IMG/VR virus record: IMGVR_UViG_3300028573_000063
Coordinates: 1 to 21,994 of that record
Source of the DNA: a virus
Reading direction: 5' to 3' (one strand)
Length of the DNA: 21,994 bases
Shown here one piece after another: positions 15-14,114 of this stretch (positions within the stretch are counted from its first letter, which is position 1; every line of letters begins with the position of its first letter). The notes beneath the pieces were generated by a model, which searched no databases, was not told the DNA's origin, and saw only the letters and a list, made by a program, of their open reading frames with translations. The translations under genes and the position numbers were made by a program.

Positions 15-179
15 TTATTGAACTGGTGTTGTCGGGTTCATCTTCTGGCTGATGTACAGATACGCGGCATTAAGAATACCTCCTACTGTAAGGTCAAGAA
101 CTCCTGAATGTGAATTGACGATGACTGGTATTGCGAACAATGCGACTGCCATAATTGCGTGTAAAATTTTGTTTTGCAT
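15..179 (-). CDS. Small two-helix membrane protein, holin candidate (54 aa)
   Basis: A complete short gene with ATG at 179 and TAA at 15-17. It starts one base after the stop of the peptidase gene (TAA-T-ATG), the same junction used by many genes here. Two hydrophobic stretches are visible, about residues 5-22 (ILHAIMAVALFAIPVIV) and 27-44 (VLDLTVGGILNAAYLYIS), followed by a short polar tail ending NPTTPVQ. Size, two-helix topology and position directly after a predicted cell-wall hydrolase fit a small holin or holin-like protein that would release or activate the lysin at the membrane. No family is recognised by sequence, so function rests on context. There is no Shine-Dalgarno-like motif before the start. 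It could instead be a small exported or membrane accessory protein. Confidence 0.6.
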   Translation of the reverse strand: MQNKILHAIMAVALFAIPVIVNSHSGVLDLTVGGILNAAYLYISQKMNPTTPVQ

Positions 180-180
180 A

Positions 181-1221
181 TTATTGTTTATTAAATAAGC
201 TATTAAGTTTTGCTCTCGTTTGATTTCCTACAAAACCTGCTACTGGCATTATATTATATTTTTTCTGAAAAGCCAATACAGCATTTAATGTTTTTAAACC
301 AAAATAATTTGTATTATCAGGATAAGTAAATTCTCCATCAAGACGTAAAGCCTCTTGGAGGGCTATAACATCGACCCCACTACATCCTAACCACAAATTA
401 TTCGTGAAATTATATTGGAAAGTTGAAGAAAAAATCTCAGTAAACATACACCAGATAAAAGGTAAATATTCCTCTCCAATCCATTGCCAGCCCATATCGC
501 CTGCCGATGTCCCCCAAGAATTTAGGAAACCTAGTTGTTTCTTTCCATTAAACATTCTGACTTTGCCAAAATATAGCCAATGAGACCATGTATCCTCGCC
601 TGATCTAGGAGGTTGAGGCATATTAGAAAGCCAGCTACCATTATTTGACCCGTCAAGACCGCATACAACCCCTTGATTATCCCTTATGGCACAAGCTATC
701 GTTTCTATATCTTTAGGCTGGTAGAAGGCATAATTGCTTGAACGAGATAGGGAAGCGTTTGAGATAGCTAAAGGTGTAATATCCTGTGAAGCCTCCATAA
801 AAGGCTCTGTGCTGTTGCCATTCTGATATGACGGACAAAGTGTTTCAGATGAAACACCTACCACATTGCATCGTTTGCATATATCCTGCGCGCCTGAACC
901 TCCACCATTTACATGGATTGGAGCATAAATAAACTTAGCTGATTCCTCTGTAAATATTTTATAAGCAAAAGCATTGGAAACTTCTGATTTATAAGCTCCC
1001 GCCTGACCTCCGCATGAATATGATGACCATTGATTCTTTACTGGAATTTTAAAGTTAGGAATTGTGAGAACTATGGCAAGCTCATTTTCTACGTCATATC
1101 CAGTGTTCCAATCCATAGGCTGTGAAGCCATAGCAATATTGTGATAGGAAAAATCCTTTTTTTGAGGAACATATTTTATAGCACCGTGACCATAAGTATT
1201 TTCTATCAGTTGAGTGTTCAT
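181..1221 (-). CDS. Papain-type (C1) cysteine peptidase with C-terminal peptidoglycan-binding domain; predicted endolysin
   Basis: 346 aa. The N-terminal half carries the papain signature in order: VKNQWSSYSC gives oxyanion Gln64 and nucleophile Cys70 with the same six-residue spacing as papain Q19/C25; His214 lies in DTWSHW; Asn234 lies in FLNSWGTSAGDMGW, matching the papain NSWG motif. Residues about 278-343 form a peptidoglycan-binding type 1 domain (GVDVIALQEALRL, YFGLKTLNAVLAFQ, GFVGNQTRAKLN). There is no signal peptide, so export would need a holin or the enzyme would be carried in the virion. It lies between two small membrane-protein genes, the usual setting of a lysis cassette. The predicted role is cutting peptide bonds in the host wall or surface layer. 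Papain-type catalytic domains are unusual for phage lysins, which more often use CHAP, NlpC/P60, amidase or glycosidase folds. The domain calls are strong; the lytic role is inferred. Confidence 0.85.
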   Translation of the reverse strand: MNTQLIENTYGHGAIKYVPQKKDFSYHNIAMASQPMDWNTGYDVENELAIVLTIPNFKIPVKNQWSSYSCGGQAGAYKSEVSNAFAYKIFTEESAKFIYAPIHVNGGGSGAQDICKRCNVVGVSSETLCPSYQNGNSTEPFMEASQDITPLAISNASLSRSSNYAFYQPKDIETIACAIRDNQGVVCGLDGSNNGSWLSNMPQPPRSGEDTWSHWLYFGKVRMFNGKKQLGFLNSWGTSAGDMGWQWIGEEYLPFIWCMFTEIFSSTFQYNFTNNLWLGCSGVDVIALQEALRLDGEFTYPDNTNYFGLKTLNAVLAFQKKYNIMPVAGFVGNQTRAKLNSLFNKQ

Positions 1222-1222
1222 A

Positions 1223-1606
1223 TTATTTTTTTAAAGTTATGAATAAAGTTACTCCAAATCCTATAATTGCTATCGCCCCAATCATATACCAACGCCACGC
1301 CTCAACATTTCGTATTCTATTTTCGTGGTCTGCTTGAACTTCCAGTACCACTTTGTGTTCTTCCGATGTGGTGTATTTATTGTCCAGCTTATCATTTAAG
1401 TTATCAATTTTTACTTCAATTCCTTTGACGGTAACAACAAGTCCTGTCAATACGTCATGGTCTGCATCGTGTGAATAATGTTCTACTGGTGCGACTGGGG
1501 CTATCGGTGCGACTGGGGCTATCGGTGCGATAGGTGCGACTTTACTGATTTGCTCTATCAAACGTATTAAATCGTCTAATTTTTTTCCTAAAGTTTTATC
1601 TGACAT
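1223..1606 (-). CDS. XhlA-like single-pass membrane protein with Ala-Pro repeat linker
   Basis: 127 aa. Three parts are visible: a short charged N-terminus; an Ala-Pro repeat at about residues 23-41 (units of VAPIAP); and a charged, probably coiled-coil segment (about 55-103) that ends in one membrane span at about 107-124 (MIGAIAIIGFGVTLFITL) with a basic KK tail. This coiled-coil-then-C-terminal-anchor layout resembles the phage XhlA/haemolysin-like lysis proteins, which act beside a holin and lysin. The stop is one base before the peptidase start (TAA-T-ATG), supporting a lysis module. The start at 1606 has only A/T-rich sequence upstream. The Ala-Pro stretch is encoded by a near-perfect tandem DNA repeat. 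It could also be a virion-tethering or spanin-like protein. Membrane topology is clear, but lysis function is inferred. Confidence 0.6.
   Translation of the reverse strand: MSDKTLGKKLDDLIRLIEQISKVAPIAPIAPVAPIAPVAPVEHYSHDADHDVLTGLVVTVKGIEVKIDNLNDKLDNKYTTSEEHKVVLEVQADHENRIRNVEAWRWYMIGAIAIIGFGVTLFITLKK
1488..1540. repeat. 18-bp tandem repeat encoding the Ala-Pro linker
   Basis: Two perfect copies of an 18-base unit (ggtgcgactggggctatc on the plus strand) at 1488-1505 and 1506-1523 are followed by a shortened, diverged 17-base copy. In the minus-strand gene each unit encodes six residues of the VAPIAP repeat. Such a repeat can change copy number by slippage, altering linker length in steps of six residues without a frameshift. 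Confidence 0.85.
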
Positions 1607-1618
1607 ATATTTTCTATG

Positions 1619-3526
1619 TTATTTACAAGCTGTTGATGAATTAGTAATGGTAAATGATGTTGCACCAGCAGCTATGTAGACATATTTTACAGTACCTCCA
1701 GCATCATACCAGATTTGACAAGTTCCTTTTGTTTGTCCAACCTTTCCCCACTCCACTGTTGTAGTTGCGTTTGCTGTTGAAGTTGCAACTTGAAGCAAAG
1801 CATCGGGAGTAGTTGTTCCGATACCTACGAAACCACCAGTAAATATAGCTGCGAAAGTGCTTGATGCATTTGTTGGAGCTGCGACTTTCAATCCATAACC
1901 CGTGAGATTTATACCAGTTAGAGCATACGAATAAATTGCAAAAGTGGCACTCGTATCAAGTTGCGCTCCGTTTGGAGATATTGATGTTTGGTCATTCTGT
2001 TCTCCCCCTGTAAATTTTGTTCCGCCAGCAATCGTCATTGCTCCACCATAGGCTTTTGAAATTGAACCGTCTGCGAGAAAGAGTGTTGCTGTTTGACCAG
2101 TTCCTTGTTTATTATTATTTATTTTTATGCTTCCAGTTTCAACATCAAGACCATATTGAGGTGATGTAGTGCCAATCCCGACATTGCCAGCATCAAACCA
2201 AGAGTTACCTGCTGAACTTATTTTATTTACCAGAGCAGTTGTTTGAGTAGTTGTTGTTCCTCGCGAGTTTCCTGTCGTAGTTGCAAAGACAAAAGTTGTT
2301 GTTGTAGTAGAGAAGTAATAAATTTTTTGATTGGTTGTTGTACCATAGTGAATATTATATGAGCCAGCACCTGTTACAGCATAGTTTGAAAGTGTGATGC
2401 TTCCAGTGCTTCCAGTTGTTGATGCAAAGACTTGTGATGATGGGGTTGTTGTTCCTACACCATCCGATGCAGATATTTGAAAGAAATATGAACCAGCAGT
2501 AAGACTCCCCCCTGATGTTGAAGAAGCAATCGTTGGAGTTGCTGGAATCGACATATTAGTAGCATAATTTCCACCTTGCCAAAGAGTGAGAAGTTGTGAA
2601 GGATTATCTGCTCCTGTTGAAGCACCGAATCCAGCTCCTATTCCGATATTATTATTACCGGCATTTGAACCATTCATAACAAGTGTTGTTGCATTGTTCG
2701 TTCTATAGGTCGAACCAGTTTGATTCAAAGTGATTGCCAATGCACCTCCATTACTAAAGGTTAAACTCTGGTTTGATGTATCATCAAAACCAGATGCAGA
2801 CATTCTTGTATAATACTCTCCAAACTGTGTTGATTGCCATGTAGCTTGAATAATATTCCCTGTGCTATTGCTCCCTCCCGCACCTGTTGACCATGTTTCA
2901 AGATTTACACCAGTATCAGGGCTTGTTGTTCCTATCGCTACCCGACCATCTCCTTGTACTATCATTGTCGAACCTGTTAGGGTAGCTGTATCAGAAATTG
3001 CCCCGCCAATTCCTACATTCAGAGAATTGCTTGAAGCTACTATCTGAGGACTGCTTGCTCCATTTGAAATTATACTTACCGCTTTTCCTGTAGAGCCTTT
3101 CAGATAAGAATTATTACCGTCATAGCCTACCGTTGACCTTCCGCCCGCTAAAGAAATGAATGTTGCAGCGTTTGCTCCTGTTCCGACATTGATTGCCTGA
3201 CCTGTGGTAGCTACTTGAAGAAGTGAATCAGGTGATGATGTACCAATACCTATTTTAAAAACATTAAAAAGTTGTTTTGCGTTCAAATCTACATTTCCTG
3301 TTGCATCTGTGTAAGGAACATAAGAAGTAAGTTGACCTGAAGTTGCATAATTTGAAACATTATCATACAAATAAGTGTTACTACCATTTCCAACTAAAAA
3401 TTGTCCTTGTGTCGGCACACTTGACGTTGCTGTACCTCCCTGAAATATTTGTAATACCGAACTTGCCATTACAGGTGTTGCTACAAATAGAAGTCCTATT
3501 AAAATTGATTTTAGAAAATTTTTCAT
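1619..3526 (-). CDS. Exported fibre-like protein with GIGTTSP-type repeats
   Basis: 635 aa. The N-terminus is a clear Sec signal: basic start (MKNFLKS), hydrophobic core, and a cleavage-like TPVMA at residues 17-21. The mature protein is Gly/Ser/Thr/Asn-rich. It carries spaced repeats GIGTSSPDSLLQ (about 93), AIGTTSPDTG (197), GIGTTSPQYGLDVE (450) and GIGTTTPDALLQ (568), typical of trimeric fibre or adhesin stalks. A Thr-rich fibronectin-III-like segment lies at about 326-432. The last 45 residues form a small module with two cysteines (C603, C634) that could form a disulfide outside the cell. Similar repeats and end modules occur, as I recall, in Patescibacteria surface proteins. The ATG overlaps the previous stop (ATGA), so it belongs to the phage operon. 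A signal peptide is odd for a virion fibre; it may be shown on the infected cell surface. Role not proven. Confidence 0.7.
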   Translation of the reverse strand: MKNFLKSILIGLLFVATPVMASSVLQIFQGGTATSSVPTQGQFLVGNGSNTYLYDNVSNYATSGQLTSYVPYTDATGNVDLNAKQLFNVFKIGIGTSSPDSLLQVATTGQAINVGTGANAATFISLAGGRSTVGYDGNNSYLKGSTGKAVSIISNGASSPQIVASSNSLNVGIGGAISDTATLTGSTMIVQGDGRVAIGTTSPDTGVNLETWSTGAGGSNSTGNIIQATWQSTQFGEYYTRMSASGFDDTSNQSLTFSNGGALAITLNQTGSTYRTNNATTLVMNGSNAGNNNIGIGAGFGASTGADNPSQLLTLWQGGNYATNMSIPATPTIASSTSGGSLTAGSYFFQISASDGVGTTTPSSQVFASTTGSTGSITLSNYAVTGAGSYNIHYGTTTNQKIYYFSTTTTTFVFATTTGNSRGTTTTQTTALVNKISSAGNSWFDAGNVGIGTTSPQYGLDVETGSIKINNNKQGTGQTATLFLADGSISKAYGGAMTIAGGTKFTGGEQNDQTSISPNGAQLDTSATFAIYSYALTGINLTGYGLKVAAPTNASSTFAAIFTGGFVGIGTTTPDALLQVATSTANATTTVEWGKVGQTKGTCQIWYDAGGTVKYVYIAAGATSFTITNSSTACK

Positions 3527-4233
3527 GATATGTATTTATTTATTGGTGGATTATTTGTTGGTGCATTGGTTAATGTTACTGTATTGCCCAATACTGTGTA
3601 ATCACCATTTAAAATTGATAATGCTTGACCTTCCAGTGAAATAAAAGATGGTGTATTTGTAAAAGTATATATTTTATTTATACTATTGACAACACCAGAA
3701 GAAGGATATTCTTCATTCCAAGTTCCAAAAGAACCTGTATGAGCTACTTTTATAGGATTATTGAAAGAACCATCTCCAACTAATGAAGCATCTGTATAAA
3801 CCTTGAACCCAGCAGAACTCCAAGTCATATGGTCTTTTCCTCCTTTTAAATATTCCCAGTCTTTTAAGTCATAGACAGATAGTTTTTCTTTACCGACTAA
3901 GGATTTTAATTTCTCTCTAATTTCCTCTGGTGTAATTATGTTACCGTCTTTTCCTCTTATCGGAGTTGGTATCAAAGGTATTATTATTTCTCTGAGTTCT
4001 TCGTTTGTTGGAATTTTGCCATCAAAATAATGCTTTCCTTTTTTTGGAGTAACCTGTTTCTTAATTTCTTCAATAGGAACAATGGCTAATATTTCTTCGG
4101 CTGTTGGAGTATCTCCCTTATCTCCCTTTAATCTAGCCAAGTCAATGGCTTCAAGCAGATCAAGTATCTTCTCGTCTGGCGTTGAGATTTTTTCGTATAT
4201 TTCTTTTAATTTTTCTTTTTTATCTTTTGGCAT
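3523..4233 (-). CDS. Tail-fibre-like protein
   Basis: About 236 aa from ATG at 4233; a TTG two codons earlier (4239) is the alternative start. The gene overlaps the end of the ATP-grasp gene by 14 bases, and its stop overlaps the next start (ATGA). The N-terminal third is charged and helical (KDKKEKLKEIYEKI). A middle part has short collagen-like pieces (GDKGDTPT, RGKDGN). It continues with the fibre motif YTDASLVGDGSFNNPIKV near residue 150 and ends with a beta module (TNTPSFISLEGQALSILNG, DYTVLGNTVTLTNAP) that I know from the ends of phage fibres and appendage proteins. It probably forms part of a trimeric host-binding fibre. Fibre identity is moderately supported; the exact partner is unknown. 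Confidence 0.6.
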   Translation of the reverse strand: MPKDKKEKLKEIYEKISTPDEKILDLLEAIDLARLKGDKGDTPTAEEILAIVPIEEIKKQVTPKKGKHYFDGKIPTNEELREIIIPLIPTPIRGKDGNIITPEEIREKLKSLVGKEKLSVYDLKDWEYLKGGKDHMTWSSAGFKVYTDASLVGDGSFNNPIKVAHTGSFGTWNEEYPSSGVVNSINKIYTFTNTPSFISLEGQALSILNGDYTVLGNTVTLTNAPTNNPPINKYIS

Positions 4234-5761
4234 AGACAATTTTTTTAAGCTTTTCTCTTATTTCCTTTCTTTTTCCTTCTTCTTTTATAGAGTTTGCCTT
4301 TGATTCTTCTTCCTGTTTCAATTTCAGTTTTTCTGATGTTAAAATATATCCCCACTTTTCAAGGTCATCTTTACACTTATGATAGTTTGTCTTATCAAAA
4401 TCGTCCCTCCAAAAAGACTTTGGAACGATTATTTTTCTAAGTAATTCATCGAGTTTTTTCCCTGCACCTTCAACGGTATTGTCCATTTGAGCCGCAGTAA
4501 GAACATATCCATCAGCATTGGCTATTTCAAGTCTGTCGTTTCTGAACCTTAGCCCATCAGGATAAACATGTTTCCAGTCTTCTTTTGTAAAATCCTTTTT
4601 AAAATTAAGTAAAATACCCTCGGAGTTTGACATTCTAAATGACATCAGATTTTTAATCTCTTCCATTCCTTGTGGTATTCCACCTTCTTCAAATGAAGCA
4701 GTAAGTTTAGCTGAATTTACAAAAGGAAAAGGTTTTGTGTAAAGCCAAGAAACTATGCACATTCTGTCGTCATATTTATAGTTCTTATCCTGTTCCCCAT
4801 CAGCCATAGCTTTTAAAAAGTCATACCATGATGATTTTTGTATCTCTAACTGTGCAGAGGTCGCTGGAACACCCATTCGAGGGGTAAATTCAAGGAAATA
4901 AGCACCTTTTTCAGTGATAATGGTATTTATATCAATATCACCCTTAAAATCAATAGACTTTAAAAGTTCTCTGCACTTATCAAGTGTTTCAGCAAAAATC
5001 TTTGAGTATTTTGCTTTTATATATCTCATCACGGTATATTGTTCACCTGTTGATTCACCCAAGTTTCCTGGAAAAAGGGCTTTGTGTTCCCAGTTTTCTT
5101 CACATATCTCATCACCATCAGAGTCTTTCATAAACTCCTTGCCATTCCAGTATGAACCGCAAGCCATCTCATGCCCTTCTATTTTTCTCTGTAACACAAA
5201 GTCTGGTTTCACTCCTTCAATCCAATGTTTCTCTAGTATTTCAAGTGAGTCTAACAAATCTTCTGAATTAGGCATACGAGCAACGAAGTTTAGACCTTTT
5301 ATCTCATCTATCTTTCCCTGTTGTTTGAGAACCCATTTTCCACCTTTTTCTTTTATAACTTCTCGTATCTTTTCAAATGTATCGCACTCGATCATTTCTG
5401 GGACTAATATACCAGACATTCCCGCTATTTTATTAGCCCAAGTTCTGTCCCATTCTAGTTTATCGGTAAGTTTATCTCCACCTATGACACTCAAACCTTT
5501 TGCTCTAAGTTCCTTAGTTTCGTCTCGGTTTGACTTGTCTTCATATATAATAAGGTCACATTGAGGTGCAAATTCAAGCCTCTCAGCATAGGGAATACGC
5601 TTTATTGTTCCTTTTAGAATGTTAGTGTGTCTTTTGGTTGCTAAATAAACATCGTGTCCTTCGTTTTGAATAACAAGAGCAAGGGAAGGGGCAAGCCACT
5701 CGTCTGTGACGATGAGAATTTTCTTCTTGAGTATTTCTTTGTTTTGTGGTATGATGGGCAT
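4220..5761 (-). CDS. PurD-like ATP-grasp ligase
   Basis: 513 aa, laid out like glycinamide ribonucleotide synthetase (PurD). Residues about 12-43 are a Rossmann-type pre-ATP-grasp strand (KILIVTDEW...GHDVYLATK). The ATP-grasp core runs about 105-320, with the likely ATP-binding Lys146 (KWVLKQQG), the FVLQRKIEGHE segment (188-198) and the metal-site segment GDIDIN...FLEFTPRMG (274-297). Residues about 340-445 resemble the PurD C-terminal domain (GGIPQGME, ANADGYVLTAAQMDNTVEGA). A lysine/glutamate-rich tail (about 465-513) is extra. The usual EFN is EFT at 291-293, so one metal ligand differs. ATP-grasp enzymes join a carboxylate to an amine using ATP. No other purine gene is present, and the gene sits between ejection and fibre genes, so a modifying role on a virion or host molecule is plausible. 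Substrate unknown. Confidence 0.75.
   Translation of the reverse strand: MPIIPQNKEILKKKILIVTDEWLAPSLALVIQNEGHDVYLATKRHTNILKGTIKRIPYAERLEFAPQCDLIIYEDKSNRDETKELRAKGLSVIGGDKLTDKLEWDRTWANKIAGMSGILVPEMIECDTFEKIREVIKEKGGKWVLKQQGKIDEIKGLNFVARMPNSEDLLDSLEILEKHWIEGVKPDFVLQRKIEGHEMACGSYWNGKEFMKDSDGDEICEENWEHKALFPGNLGESTGEQYTVMRYIKAKYSKIFAETLDKCRELLKSIDFKGDIDINTIITEKGAYFLEFTPRMGVPATSAQLEIQKSSWYDFLKAMADGEQDKNYKYDDRMCIVSWLYTKPFPFVNSAKLTASFEEGGIPQGMEEIKNLMSFRMSNSEGILLNFKKDFTKEDWKHVYPDGLRFRNDRLEIANADGYVLTAAQMDNTVEGAGKKLDELLRKIIVPKSFWRDDFDKTNYHKCKDDLEKWGYILTSEKLKLKQEEESKANSIKEEGKRKEIREKLKKIVYAKR
5727..5755 (+). promoter_or_regulatory. Possible plus-strand sigma70 promoter with extended -10
   Basis: TTGAGT at 5727-5732, a 17-base spacer, then TATGAT at 5750-5755 preceded by TGG (an extended -10). 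The ATG of a 29-aa plus-strand reading frame begins at 5762, about where transcription would start, so the message would be leaderless. The element lies inside the first codons of the divergent ATP-grasp gene, and a chance match in AT-rich coding DNA cannot be excluded. Confidence 0.4.
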
Positions 5762-5851
5762 ATGAATGTGATATACTTTATTTTAATTTGTTTTAGTGGT
5801 TATCTTATATACGCTGGACTTAAACAAATGATTGAAGCTTTGTTTTATTAA
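5762..5851 (+). CDS. Putative 29-aa membrane peptide on the opposite strand
   Basis: ATG at 5762, TAA at 5849-5851. The peptide is MNVIYFILICFSGYLIYAGL followed by KQMIEALFY: one membrane span and a short amphipathic end. It is the only plausible plus-strand gene in the window. It fills the whole 86-base gap between two minus-strand genes: its ATG directly abuts the ATG of the ATP-grasp gene (CATATG) and its stop overlaps the TAA of the ejection-protein gene. A promoter-like element lies just upstream with spacing for a leaderless message. Single-span peptides of this size include type I toxin-like and membrane-regulatory peptides, but no family is recognised. The gap could instead be a non-coding spacer. 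Confidence 0.4.
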   Translation: MNVIYFILICFSGYLIYAGLKQMIEALFY

Positions 5852-7296
5852 GGTAAAAATTGACCGATACCAGGTACTAAATTCTTTACTCCTTTTTCTA
5901 TTGCAATACCGCCAGCAACTGTCCCAGCACCTTTTAGGAATTTTCCAGCTTTACTAAGTGAACCAATAGAAGCTTGTATTTTTCCTTTAAGAATTTCAGC
6001 AACATCAAATAATTTAGCTTGAGACTTGTTAGCTGTTTTATAGATAGCCGCTTTATCTGCTGGCAAGCTATCAACAATATATTTTTTTACTGCTTGATAT
6101 GTGGTATCGGCAGCTTTAGATATAGTAGCATCAGATTTTGCATTAGCAGAACGAAAAGACTCAAGCGCATCATCTAAACCTTTAAGAGTTCCGTCTTTAA
6201 CGTGGCTAAGAAAATCAGCAATCCTCTTATCAGAAAAAGCTGCTTGTTGTTCCTTAGTATAGCCCTCATAAATACTATCGCTCATCTTTCCAATAGCATT
6301 TTTTATACCAGAAACAAGAGTATTTTTATTTATAGTTTTATTGACACCATCAAATGCAGTTTTTGATTGTTGCTGTAATTTTCCTAATTCTTTTTGGACA
6401 TTCTGTATGTTTTCTTCTGGGGTTTTACCAGTTAAAACATCTTTAAACTCACTAGCTAATTTTTTAACTTGGTCAGTCATTTTATATATCTTTTCTTTTA
6501 AAATACCGCCCTCTGTTTTTGTCATATCAAATCCTTTATCAGTCAGATATTTTAGTTTTGATTTATCAACAGCACTCAACTCTTTTTCACCTAAAGATAA
6601 AGCTTTCTCTGCTGTTGTTTTTGCTTCAGGTAATATTTTTTTAACTGCATCAACACCTTTTTCAATAGTAGGTTTTGCTGCTTCTCCAAGTTTTTCAACT
6701 GTACCAATAAGTTTTTCTCCTCCGCTGACAACACTCGGTACAGCTTTTGTTGCAAGTGTTCCTGTTTCCATTCCCTTTGCCGCCTTTCCGTAAGTGCCAA
6801 AAGATACTGCATCAAGAGCTGTTCCTGCCGCATTTCCTAAAACTTCACCTGTTGATGGTAACTTCCCTGTAAAATCTTCTTGTTTTGGATTCTCGTTGAT
6901 ATGAGATTGTAAAGCGTTTTTTAATGCTGTTGTATCTTGACCATTTTGTGTTTTTGTTGCTATCGCATCTTGTAACGATTTTGTAATTGAATCATGCTGT
7001 GCCAGTGTCTGAGTAAATTGATCTGTATTACTTCCTGCTGTAATAGCAGAAGTTATGTTTTTCCCCAATCCTTGTTCGGCACTGGTAAGAAAGTTTCCTA
7101 CTCCCTTTGCTGCACTTCCAAGAGTGCCTAAAAGAGAAGTTTTTTGAGGTACTTGTACATTTGTCTTAGGGGCTGGAGCATTCATCTTTATTCCCATTTT
7201 TGATGGGTCGAAACTACTAGCGCTGTTACTCGGAACATTATTTGTACCTGGTGGGTTCATCTTTATTCCAAATTTTGATGGGTCAAATGTTGACAT
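5848..7296 (-). CDS. Probable ejection (internal virion) protein with duplicated N-terminal motif
   Basis: 482 aa. The N-terminus has two near-identical motifs, FDPSKFGIKMNPPG (about 4-17) and FDPSKMGIKMNAPA (about 29-42). Next comes a glycine/alanine-rich amphipathic region (LLGTLGSAAKGVGNFLTSAE), a long lysine-rich helical middle section (about 170-430) and a glycine-rich hydrophobic end (KGAGTVAGGIAIEKG...VPGIGQFLP). This long helical composition with membrane-active ends is typical of podovirus proteins packed in the head and injected with DNA. The place after the nozzle-like gene matches internal-virion genes in short-tailed phages. The start follows the previous stop by one base (TAA-T-ATG). 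No sequence family is recognised. A structural baseplate or plug protein is the alternative. Confidence 0.5.
   Translation of the reverse strand: MSTFDPSKFGIKMNPPGTNNVPSNSASSFDPSKMGIKMNAPAPKTNVQVPQKTSLLGTLGSAAKGVGNFLTSAEQGLGKNITSAITAGSNTDQFTQTLAQHDSITKSLQDAIATKTQNGQDTTALKNALQSHINENPKQEDFTGKLPSTGEVLGNAAGTALDAVSFGTYGKAAKGMETGTLATKAVPSVVSGGEKLIGTVEKLGEAAKPTIEKGVDAVKKILPEAKTTAEKALSLGEKELSAVDKSKLKYLTDKGFDMTKTEGGILKEKIYKMTDQVKKLASEFKDVLTGKTPEENIQNVQKELGKLQQQSKTAFDGVNKTINKNTLVSGIKNAIGKMSDSIYEGYTKEQQAAFSDKRIADFLSHVKDGTLKGLDDALESFRSANAKSDATISKAADTTYQAVKKYIVDSLPADKAAIYKTANKSQAKLFDVAEILKGKIQASIGSLSKAGKFLKGAGTVAGGIAIEKGVKNLVPGIGQFLP
7181..7287. repeat. Direct repeat encoding the duplicated FDPSKxGIKMN motif
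   Basis: Two 32-base copies at 7181-7212 and 7256-7287 share ttcatctttattcc and gatgggtc, differing at only a few positions. They encode the two copies of FDPSK(F/M)GIKMN(P/A)P at the start of the ejection-protein candidate. Near-identity at DNA level suggests a fairly recent duplication or ongoing homogenisation. Confidence 0.8.
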
Positions 7297-7297
7297 A

Positions 7298-9367
7298 TTA
7301 TTGTTGTGAGTTTATTTCATATCCGTCACTAAATGCTGAATTTAGTTGTTGAGGAGTCATTGTGTTTGGTTCTATTGGGTCAGATACATTGCCTTTTGAA
7401 TCCGTAAGTGTAATTGTTTTGTTTACAGGATTTTCAGGATTGATTCCAAGTCCATCAATTTTTATATAAGCCTTAGCATTGGTATTTAAAATAGTGTTCT
7501 GTTGATTGTTTGCCTCTGTCATCAAAGTTTGAAGAATCTGTTTAGCTTGTGCAATATTTGAATTGGCTGGAAGTAAATCTTGCGAAGATAGTTTATCAGC
7601 GACTGTTGTTCCTCCCCCCGCGTTCTTTACTGCCAATAAACTAGAAAGTTCATTTGCTAATGTTTCGTGTTGTGAAAGATACTGGGCGACTGAAGGTGAG
7701 CCTGAAGATTGAGCTATATAGTCTAAGAGACCATTAAAAATAGGTTTTGCTGTATTGATATTATTAGCCGTCATATTTTCAAGATTTAATCCAAAATTCT
7801 TGCTGATTGTCCCAGTTTGTACATCAAGTTGATTCAATAGATTATTATTTGATGTTATATTTTTATTTTGAGTATCAATAGTATTTTTTGAAGGAAGTTT
7901 TAATCCACCTGTCGCTTCTGAATATAAAGTGGCAGCTCGACTTGTAATGGTTGCATTCACAGCGGCAGTTAGTGCACTACGAGAAGCACTCGTTTGGCTT
8001 CCTCCTCCTAAGAAATTCATCAAATATGTATAAGCTTCTTTATCAGTTACGCTAGAGTCAGGCTTAAAATCCTTTACATTAGCAAGTAGTCCATATTGTG
8101 CAACTGAAAGACCATTAGGGTTTGAAGTATTTGTGTTAGAAGGTGCATCTTTTGGAGCAACTGTTGTATCTCCTTGAGGATTTTGTGATATAGATACAGG
8201 TTTGCCGCTAGTATCAAAACCAGAAGTTGCTCCAGGATTCCTCGTCCAATAATTGGTTGCAGCGCCTGTAGCAGGGTCAGTTCCTTTTGCTAATTTATAT
8301 CCTGACTGACCAAGTTTTGTAGCAACATCTTGTTCCTTTTGTGTGAATTGCTGTTGCTGAACATCTATTTTTTGTTGTGCCTGTGTTATTTTAGCTTGTC
8401 CTTGTGCTAGTGTCTGTGATTTATAAAAGTTTGCATCTGATTCTTTTTGTTGTGCTACAGCATCGGAATATGATTTCGCTGCGATATTTTGTTCTCCAAC
8501 AAGCTGTGTTCTCTGTGCTGTAAGAGTATTTCTTTCTGCAAGAAGAGGAGCATTTTCAGCCAATACGGTTGAACGTAGTTGTGATTCATCTACCACTCCA
8601 CCTGATCGAGCTATCTCATCTCTCTTGTTAGCCATAGCAGAGTCGATTGATTTATTTATATCAGCTATTTTTGATGTAACATCAACAACTGCTTGTTGAG
8701 CTTGAGTATAAGCGTCTTTTGACGTAGAAACTTCAGGGATAATTGGGGGTTTTCCCGAATTGCTTGCATCCGTTCCTGCTGAACCTGCCGCACCAGCAAT
8801 TGAACCATTTACGGCATTTTGTGTCGATTGGTCTGGCATTTTATCTCCAGGATAATAATCTGATTGTCCAGGAGTTCCTCTTGAAGTACCTGGAACATAT
8901 TGAATGACGTTACCATGTTCATCTCTTGAAATAGGAGTTCCGTTTGCATCAAAACTATAGTTTGAATTTTGATTTACCCCATTGTTTATAACTGGGGCTG
9001 AAACTGTGCCATTTGGGTTCTGTATTGTTCCTCCAGCACTAGATACCGTTCCGCTAATATTTGTTGCTGTAGGGTCTGTTTTACCGCTTTTAAGGACATT
9101 TAAAAGAGCAGTATTACCTTCGGCTGTACCAATATTGGTTATTCCATACTTTTGTCCCAATGTTTGCCTATTCTGCATTGAAGGGTCTTCCCCAATTGAA
9201 GTTAAATAATCAACTATTGAATTTGGATTTAATTTTGAATAACTATCCTTTAGGTTTGCTATTGTTTGAATAGGTGCTATTTTGAGAGTTGAAAGCTCAT
9301 AAGGAGTTGCGTCTCTTCCTACTGCATCATTTACTGCTGAATGAATCTGATTGTCTTGAATTGACAT
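7298..9367 (-). CDS. Large virion protein, probable ejection/internal protein
   Basis: 689 aa from the ATG at 9367 (MSIQDNQIHSAVNDAVGRDA). This start is chosen because it lies two bases after the stop of the nozzle-like gene; an in-frame ATG 15 codons upstream overlaps that gene and is less likely. Residues about 100-235 are low-complexity Asn/Gly/Thr/Ser-rich. A long coiled-coil-like, Gln/Ala-rich segment lies at about 240-370 (SKDAYTQAQQAVVDVTSKI, QAKITQAQQKIDVQQQQFTQ). The rest is helical with polar linkers. Length, coiled coil and position between the nozzle-like protein and the second ejection candidate fit an internal virion protein that crosses the envelope during infection. It could be a tape-measure-like protein, but no tail-tube genes accompany it. 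No family is recognised. Confidence 0.5.
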   Translation of the reverse strand: MSIQDNQIHSAVNDAVGRDATPYELSTLKIAPIQTIANLKDSYSKLNPNSIVDYLTSIGEDPSMQNRQTLGQKYGITNIGTAEGNTALLNVLKSGKTDPTATNISGTVSSAGGTIQNPNGTVSAPVINNGVNQNSNYSFDANGTPISRDEHGNVIQYVPGTSRGTPGQSDYYPGDKMPDQSTQNAVNGSIAGAAGSAGTDASNSGKPPIIPEVSTSKDAYTQAQQAVVDVTSKIADINKSIDSAMANKRDEIARSGGVVDESQLRSTVLAENAPLLAERNTLTAQRTQLVGEQNIAAKSYSDAVAQQKESDANFYKSQTLAQGQAKITQAQQKIDVQQQQFTQKEQDVATKLGQSGYKLAKGTDPATGAATNYWTRNPGATSGFDTSGKPVSISQNPQGDTTVAPKDAPSNTNTSNPNGLSVAQYGLLANVKDFKPDSSVTDKEAYTYLMNFLGGGSQTSASRSALTAAVNATITSRAATLYSEATGGLKLPSKNTIDTQNKNITSNNNLLNQLDVQTGTISKNFGLNLENMTANNINTAKPIFNGLLDYIAQSSGSPSVAQYLSQHETLANELSSLLAVKNAGGGTTVADKLSSQDLLPANSNIAQAKQILQTLMTEANNQQNTILNTNAKAYIKIDGLGINPENPVNKTITLTDSKGNVSDPIEPNTMTPQQLNSAFSDGYEINSQQ

Positions 9368-12541: not shown

Positions 12542-12988
12542 TTAATTGATTATAAAATAAATAATTGTTGAACTGTCAGTAGCGGACGAGCTAGAGAGAG
12601 TAAAACTTCCTGATGTCGTTGTGTATGATATATGTCCGAGTGTCCCTCCTGAAGTTGAACGAGATGTAATTATTAAAGATGTCGTGGTCGCAAGATTATT
12701 TGATACTGTTGCTGAACCTGCGCCAAGAGAGACTGTACCGATATAATTATTGTTCCTCAGATAAGTCATTATAGTTGGAGATTGCTCTGTAATCAAGTCG
12801 ATCGTATCTTGAGTGAGAGGGAAAGTAAGTTGTCCTGAATTTTCAGTTAAAGTATCTATGCTATCTGACTGTTGAGAAAGAGTATCATTTACATCATTTA
12901 AAGAACTATCCAAATTATCAGAAAAATCTTGCAGATTACTGTCATTATCATCCAATCTTTGTGTTATTTCGTCTATTTGGTCTTGCAT
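12542..12988 (-). CDS. Short trimeric fibre protein
   Basis: 148 aa. Residues 1-52 are a regular acidic coiled coil (IDEITQRLDDNDSNLQDFSD ... LDSSLNDVNDTLSQQSDSID), suitable for a trimeric stalk. The C-terminal ~65 residues are a recurrent phage beta module (IGTVSLGAGSATVSNNLATT, TSGGTLGHISYTTTSGSFTL, SSATDSSTIIYFIIN) that I know from tail-fibre and appendage proteins of many phages. It follows the glycine-rich adhesin gene (TAA-T-ATG) and precedes the adaptor. It is probably a small fibre, a head fibre or a trimerising partner for the neighbouring adhesin. Confidence 0.65.
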   Translation of the reverse strand: MQDQIDEITQRLDDNDSNLQDFSDNLDSSLNDVNDTLSQQSDSIDTLTENSGQLTFPLTQDTIDLITEQSPTIMTYLRNNNYIGTVSLGAGSATVSNNLATTTSLIITSRSTSGGTLGHISYTTTSGSFTLSSSSATDSSTIIYFIIN

Positions 12989-12989
12989 A

Positions 12990-14114
12990 TTATTGTCCGC
13001 TATTTTTCTTACTCCAAGTTGTTGAGCTTACAATTTTTTCTTTCCAAGATGAAACATTATTTGATACTGTTTTCCATAAAGTCTTTAAAGGGGTACTAGA
13101 TTTTGCAATAAATTGTCCTAAATTCATTACATAATGAATACCTGAAAGTGTCGCAGCATAAACTTTTGACATTAGTGTTTGAAATGTTCCAATAGATAGA
13201 GTATAGGTTACTCCTGAAAGAAGTGCATGAATTGAACGTACTATTCCAGTATTCCCAAGAGATAAGGCATAAGATACTCCTGAAAGAGTGGCTGTATATG
13301 CTGTACCATTCGACATTACAAGTGAACCGCTTGATGTAAATGTATAAATATCTCTACCTCCTGATGAAGTGTGTGAACCTCCTGAAATTGTCCAGCCAGT
13401 TAAATCTGTTGTTAAAAATGAAACAATAACGATACCCGCTGAACCATTACCGCCTGTTTGCTGAGCATTTGAACTTCCACCTCCACCTGAACCAGTATTT
13501 GCAGTTGCGTTTGTTGCTGCTAATGTCGAACCGTCTGAACCATTACCTCCAATACTCGAACCGCCTGTTCCTTTTGTTCCTGCTAAATAAGCTCCGCCTC
13601 CTCCTCCTCCAGCATAGAATAATGCTGAACCTGATATTGAATTTGATGTACCAGTTCCACCATTACCTGCTGTTGTACCACTTCCTGAGACTCCCGCACT
13701 CGCTGAACCTCCACCTCCACCTGATGGGAATGGTGTTCCGACAGAAGTATTGCCTCCCGCGTTACCCAATTCACCCCCCGAAGCTGTTGACGAACCTCCT
13801 GATGTTCCCGCTCCTCCTGATGACGCTCCTGCACCACCGCCAGAGCCTCCATTAAAGGCAGCGGACGGAGTAGCATTTACTCCACCTCCACCTCCACCTC
13901 CATGAGCGGTCAAAGTATCAAAAGTTGAGTTTTGACCGTTTCCTGGGTCAACTGTACCTGAACTATTCCCGCTTCCTCCGTTACCGACGCTTACTGTGTA
14001 TGTTCCCGATGTCAGTGTGTGTGCTGAATCATACAAATAACCACCAGCGCCTCCACCTCCGTCGCCTCCACCTCCACCTCCAGCAACTACAAGTACTCTG
14101 GCATTTATTGACAT
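12990..14114 (-). CDS. Glycine-rich adhesin-like protein
   Basis: 374 aa. It opens with RVLVVAGGGGGGDGGGGAGG, the start of the widespread glycine-rich domain, and stays dominated by Gly runs with Ser, Ala, Thr and Asn to about residue 225. Gly-rich phage adhesins such as T-even gp38 and S16-type tips pack such runs as polyglycine-II helices with variable receptor-binding loops between them. A beta strand (GSAGIVIVSFLTTDLTGWTI) closes this region. Then three related units follow: YTATLSGVSYALSLG (273-287), IHALLSGVTYTLSIG (295-309) and YAATLSGIHYVMNLG (319-333). The end (TLWKTVSNNVSSWKEKIVSS) is Trp- and Lys-containing and possibly amphipathic. The predicted role is virion surface display or host recognition. 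Sitting next to a short fibre gene supports this. Confidence 0.65.
   Translation of the reverse strand: MSINARVLVVAGGGGGGDGGGGAGGYLYDSAHTLTSGTYTVSVGNGGSGNSSGTVDPGNGQNSTFDTLTAHGGGGGGGVNATPSAAFNGGSGGGAGASSGGAGTSGGSSTASGGELGNAGGNTSVGTPFPSGGGGGSASAGVSGSGTTAGNGGTGTSNSISGSALFYAGGGGGGAYLAGTKGTGGSSIGGNGSDGSTLAATNATANTGSGGGGSSNAQQTGGNGSAGIVIVSFLTTDLTGWTISGGSHTSSGGRDIYTFTSSGSLVMSNGTAYTATLSGVSYALSLGNTGIVRSIHALLSGVTYTLSIGTFQTLMSKVYAATLSGIHYVMNLGQFIAKSSTPLKTLWKTVSNNVSSWKEKIVSSTTWSKKNSGQ

Follow-up and report, generated by a model that had tools for sequence, protein, structure and literature searches.

The papain-like gene and its neighbours

The window analysed here, the whole stretch of 21,994 nucleotides of the virus record IMGVR_UViG_3300028573_000063, carries near its position 1 a gene for a C1A papain-fold peptidase fused to a peptidoglycan-binding domain. 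The gene lies on the minus strand (181–1221, read from 1221 to 181), starts with ATG and encodes 346 amino acids without a signal peptide or a transmembrane segment; the plus frame is interrupted by many stop codons. The sequence-only reading had assigned the papain set Gln-Cys-His-Asn to this protein, and we find the four residues exactly as claimed and in papain order, with the correction that they are encoded on the minus strand. As judged from a structure alignment to xylellain and from a profile alignment, the catalytic domain comprises approximately residues 11–266 (424–1191, minus strand) and includes a xylellain-like N-terminal segment (GAIxDxxDxRD). It contains Q64, the equivalent of the oxyanion-hole glutamine (codon at 1030–1032), the catalytic C70 (1012–1014), the catalytic H214 (580–582) and N234, the orienting asparagine of an NSWG motif (520–522), all on the minus strand. 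The C-terminal peptidoglycan-binding domain of type 1, which had been claimed as well, spans residues 270–344 (190–414, minus strand) and is confirmed by a Pfam match of residues 282–339 to PG_binding_1 (PF01471, 2.9e-6, above the cut-off). Our own family HMM, which includes the window sequence itself, matches this domain with 1.2e-33. No murein-hydrolase family matches the protein, and there is no match to Pfam CHAP or NlpC at E ≤ 0.1.

Directly upstream lies a gene for a 127-aa protein (1223–1606, minus strand) with a proline-rich linker, a coiled coil and a C-terminal transmembrane segment, a topology resembling that of XhlA. A homolog is found at the same place in the close relative G002 (E 1e-13) and a weaker one in G019 (0.001). 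On the other side a 54-aa hydrophobic ORF (15–179, minus strand), not listed in the sequence-only reading, starts 1 nt past the stop codon of the papain gene. It has one clear transmembrane segment and a weak second one and is, by position and hydrophobicity only, a holin-like candidate. Upstream of this cassette we read a 635-aa protein (1619–3526, minus strand) as tail-fibre-like from its GIGTTSP-type repeats; it has no Pfam match. Repeated GIGTTSP and N-terminal signal-like segments are shared by this protein and the tail-fibre-like protein of G002 (4920–7517, minus strand).

Two further genes of the window were noted. Among the tail genes there is a 513-aa ATP-grasp gene (4220–5761, minus strand; GARS-A-like with 1.2e-4, below the cut-off), which is kept in eight of the gene-mapped records. 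A 148-aa protein (12542–12988, minus strand) matches with its C-terminal part the K1 lyase C-terminal domain (PF24146, 6e-13) and adjoins a glycine-rich tail protein (12990–14114).

Homologs and fold of the catalytic domain

Using the window protein as query we found nothing in viral contigs, in the INPHARED phages (tblastn over 50,697 phage records) or in the PLSDB plasmids. The lack of any homologous C1 domain in these phage records bears out the claimed rarity of C1 lysins, and a relative used as query recovered from the phage records only the Thermoanaerobacterium phage THSA-485A and one uncultured megaphage. Relatives were reached instead through the major capsid protein, which led to 21 related virus records, followed by stepwise searches. 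Homologs are present in two of the 21 capsid-related records (identities of 28% and 31% within the aligned parts), and both match Peptidase_C1. In IMG/VR the stepwise searches brought the number of non-redundant C1 loci to about 30; PF00112 is above its cut-off in 10 of the 30 homolog-bearing records. Searches of genome contigs with the C1 family alignment A3 gave no match, and with alignment A6 three small phage-like contigs were matched, one of which was the entry to a phylum with small genomes.

Among 34 homologs with roughly 20–45% identity the active-site glutamine and cysteine are each conserved in 33 and the histidine in all 34, and at the position of N234 there is an asparagine in 28 and an aspartate in four. 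An alignment of 19 sequences (A7) has only eight invariant columns, and Q64, C70 and H214 are among them. We considered that the Gln-Cys-His-Asn set might be an artefact and rejected this reading, since the active-site residues are conserved among the homologs. In G002 the lysis slot is occupied by a C1-like protein (L028, 3257–4216, minus strand) that has leucine and tryptophan in place of the aligned glutamine and cysteine and has no peptidoglycan-binding domain; it is possibly inactive or misaligned.

Because Pfam Peptidase_C1 misses the window protein on its own, the papain assignment needed independent support, and it rests on the homologs, on the family profile compared with the PDB and on the predicted fold. 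The profile of 19 members of the family finds xylellain with 3.7e-26, followed by Blo t 1, mexicain, chymopapain and cathepsin K, and its active-site motifs line up with those of xylellain. The AlphaFold model of the window protein (pLDDT 89, pTM 0.83) adopts the papain fold, in which the central helix (residues 70–87) begins with C70. With VIA-align, model residues 8–266 superpose on xylellain (3ois) with Z 27.2 and an rmsd of 2.2 over 235 residues, and on the cathepsins and papain with Z 22–25. In a viral library the best matches include phage proteins named "Peptidase_C1" and "Peptidoglycan binding-like". From the conservation of the active site, the profile match and the fold matches of the model we conclude that the window protein is an enzyme of the C1A type whose active site is intact, so that the papain-type catalytic domain proposed from the sequence holds. 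C1A enzymes are proteases of ordinary L-peptides.

The lysis cassette in related phages

We compared the surroundings of 27 C1 genes with those of 119 other large genes from the same loci. A small ORF with at least two transmembrane segments starts within 250 nt downstream of 16 of the 27 C1 genes and of five of the 119 controls (p = 2e-10), and a small transmembrane gene ends just upstream of 15 C1 genes and of 12 controls (p = 9e-7); these p-values overstate independence, as the loci are partly related. The two-TM holin-like gene is often followed by a gene for a signal-bearing SLT lysozyme-like protein. The whole order, i.e., coiled-coil–TM gene, C1-like gene, two-TM gene and SLT gene, is seen in G002, and the order is whole or partial in L052, L057, L061 and L064. 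In G001 and G019 the coiled-coil–TM gene is followed by a C1 gene with peptidoglycan-binding domain, with an SLT-like gene within 1–2 kb. With our own HMM an SLT-like ORF was detected in 18 of the 34 loci, many of which are truncated; the matches in L045 and L046 are weak and concern large virion-type proteins encoded upstream rather than cassette genes. In the lysis cassette of G022 (L045) no wall hydrolase was recognised on a contig that may be incomplete, and the C1 protein with its peptidoglycan-binding domain may be the only lysin of that phage. The phage contig of G022 (L105/L106) also encodes the chaperonin proteins Cpn60 (8e-46) and Cpn10 (2e-6). The lysis-type neighbourhood described from the window alone is therefore recurrent, TM and holin-like genes flanking the C1 gene across unrelated phages, and a role of the window protein in lysis is well supported.

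Fused domains and adjoining enzymes

The C1 domain is joined to a peptidoglycan-binding domain in 13 of the 34 homologs. It is naturally fused to an M23 murein peptidase in L104 (6406–7857) and to an M15_3 murein peptidase in L073 (4989–6110), and it is joined to SH3_3 in L072 and to DUF5675 in L102. Variants without the peptidoglycan-binding domain, e.g., L052–L054 and L064, carry a short amphipathic helix at the end of the C1 domain. CHAP genes adjoin the C1 gene in L103 and L104; in 27 IMG/VR records neither CHAP nor M23 reached the cut-off, so that these partners are seen here only in the chromosomal prophages.

The fused or adjoining partners other than DUF5675 and the amphipathic helices are wall-acting, and through them the C1 domain is linked to lysis. 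Moreover, several partners are murein enzymes, and this suggests that the C1 domain cuts something other than murein. It is common for a glycosidase to be paired with an enzyme that cuts murein peptides, and the pairing alone is therefore no proof of a protein substrate.

Hosts

Three C1 cassettes (L102, L103 and L104) are located in prophages with integrases. From sequence reading, at least two of these prophages lie beside host genes, namely rpiB and transketolase for L102 and uracil-DNA glycosylase for L104. All listed genomes of the phylum that hosts the three prophages are 0.5–2 Mb in size, and the ribosomal protein uL30 is absent in 75 of its 78 genomes compared with one of 14 controls. 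Since uL30 has been reported to be absent from all CPR (PMC5220378), we infer from the small genomes mostly without uL30 that this phylum is Patescibacteria/CPR.

Peptidoglycan-binding domains resembling that of the window are frequent in large proteins of this phylum, and the capsid family of the window was found in only two of 380 of its genomes, on short contigs. A CPR host had been guessed for the window phage. For the protein family the guess is upheld by the prophages in small genomes lacking uL30; for the window phage itself a patescibacterial host is no more than likely. SLH and S-layer proteins have been reported in Patescibacteria (PMC13059738), and S-layers are not universal there, as S-layer biosynthesis is reported to be missing in one member (PMC5220378).

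Possible role of the protein in lysis

We think it probable that the window protein is an accessory lysin, released by holin and anchored to the wall, and that it cuts protein while a partner enzyme cuts the peptidoglycan. The protein would be made in the cytoplasm of the tailed-phage host. As it has no secretion signal and its cassette contains a coiled-coil–TM gene and a holin-like TM gene, it would probably escape through holin lesions once the infection comes to its end. The C-terminal domain would then dock the protein on peptidoglycan, and the C1A domain, whose active site is intact, would cleave a polypeptide by Cys-His-Asn catalysis, the probable target being a cell-surface protein of the S-layer or linked to the wall. 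The glycan would be cut by a separate phage hydrolase, which in close relatives would be the SLT lysozyme-like protein encoded just downstream; in the window phage the corresponding gene would lie past the contig end at position 1.

The sequence-only reading had presented the protein as the phage's lysin. Its location in a lysis cassette agrees with this, and the status of a sole endolysin is weakened by the relatives, which usually carry or fuse a conventional hydrolase. An accessory protease fits better than a sole endolysin because the relatives add SLT, CHAP, M23, M15 or GH25 enzymes. Action on proteins rather than on peptidoglycan, which had been mentioned as an alternative, is thus the version we favour.

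The main rival to a protein-cutting enzyme is a true endolysin, whose papain domain would cleave a peptidoglycan of an unusual, Patescibacteria-like type in its peptide cross-links or its stem peptides, with the peptidoglycan-binding domain for targeting and SLT as second activity. The fusion to the peptidoglycan-binding domain, the holin-type neighbours and the missing signal peptide would all suit such an enzyme, as would the G022 cassette, in which no further wall hydrolase was recognised, and other clan CA folds (CHAP, NlpC/P60) do cut murein (PMC10318531). However, the fold matches are to C1A proteases and not to CHAP or NlpC, and the M23 and M15 fusions and the CHAP and GH25 neighbours would be redundant if the C1 domain cut murein peptides. 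C1A enzymes, moreover, act on L-peptides. We consider a true endolysin possible and on the whole unlikely.

The position of the C1 gene just beyond the tail-fibre-like genes, in the window and in some relatives, could also point to a virion-associated protease at the tail tip that opens a surface layer at infection. Against such an entry enzyme, small TM and holin-like genes flank the C1 gene in unrelated phages, often with a spacing of 1–15 nt between stop and start codons, and L045 and L046 have a separate large upstream protein with the SLT-like domain that is expected of virion enzymes, so that we find this explanation improbable. An intracellular protease for anti-defence or host shut-off that lies in the lysis region by chance would agree with the missing signal peptide and with the short amphipathic helix of the variants without peptidoglycan-binding domain, and is hardly credible in view of the repeated fusion to wall-acting PGB, SH3, M23 and M15 domains.

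Extending the accessory protein-cutting lysin beyond the window, we tentatively propose, at somewhat short of even confidence, that phages of Patescibacteria commonly carry a dedicated C1A surface-protein lysin, either wall-anchored or fused to M23 or M15, so that lysis would have a second, separate step, the dissolving of the host's S-layer or protein coat, beside the action of a conventional murein hydrolase. If this is true, lysis of these small-genome bacteria needs digestion of protein as well as of murein, and the enzymes would give direct access to the surface of these bacteria, whose envelopes are poorly known, and could supply proteases directed at bacterial walls. The reading can be tested with the prophages L102, L103 and L104 and with the isolated phage THSA-485A.

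Comparison with known systems

The papain-like phage lysins of a published classification are CHAP, NlpC and amidase clusters (Amidase_5) (PMC10318531). In the literature searched we found no description of true C1A enzymes in lysis cassettes. The "papain-like amidase" of Tyrovirus was considered as a precedent and discarded, since it belongs to the tail and its description is that of a permuted papain-like amidase. The CHAP, NlpC/P60 and Amidase_5 lysins resemble the window protein in that they are cysteine enzymes of clan CA whose wall-binding domain is separate; they are, however, other families, whereas the window protein folds like C1A. The pseudomurein endoisopeptidases PeiW and PeiP of methanogen phages (PMC4592898) are described as cysteine peptidase lysins fitted to an unusual wall; they differ in peptidase family and target, and the likeness is one of description.

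The 127-aa upstream protein corresponds to the XhlA-type holin-cassette accessory proteins (PF10779) in its coiled coil followed by a C-terminal TM segment, and the only match to this family is a sub-threshold one for its counterpart in G001 (E 0.14). Xylellain, the C1A cysteine protease of Xylella fastidiosa, is the nearest solved structure and has the N-terminal segment in common with the window protein; it differs in being a bacterial and not a phage protease, in lacking a peptidoglycan-binding domain in the matched structure and in its sequence, with 19% identity.

The closest parallel in an isolated phage is Tsac_2838, annotated as "peptidase C1A papain", of THSA-485A (NC_018264), which belongs to phrog_16701. 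This phage C1A family is filed by PHROGs as "peptidase, other"; it matches several of the relatives and not the window protein itself. The gene of Tsac_2838 begins 15 nt after that of an endolysin composed of GH25 and a peptidoglycan-binding domain, and coiled-coil–TM and holin-like genes lie upstream. Unlike the window protein, Tsac_2838 has no peptidoglycan-binding domain, the wall-binding domain being carried by its partner enzyme. THSA-485A thus shows that the papain–lysin arrangement is not confined to Patescibacteria.
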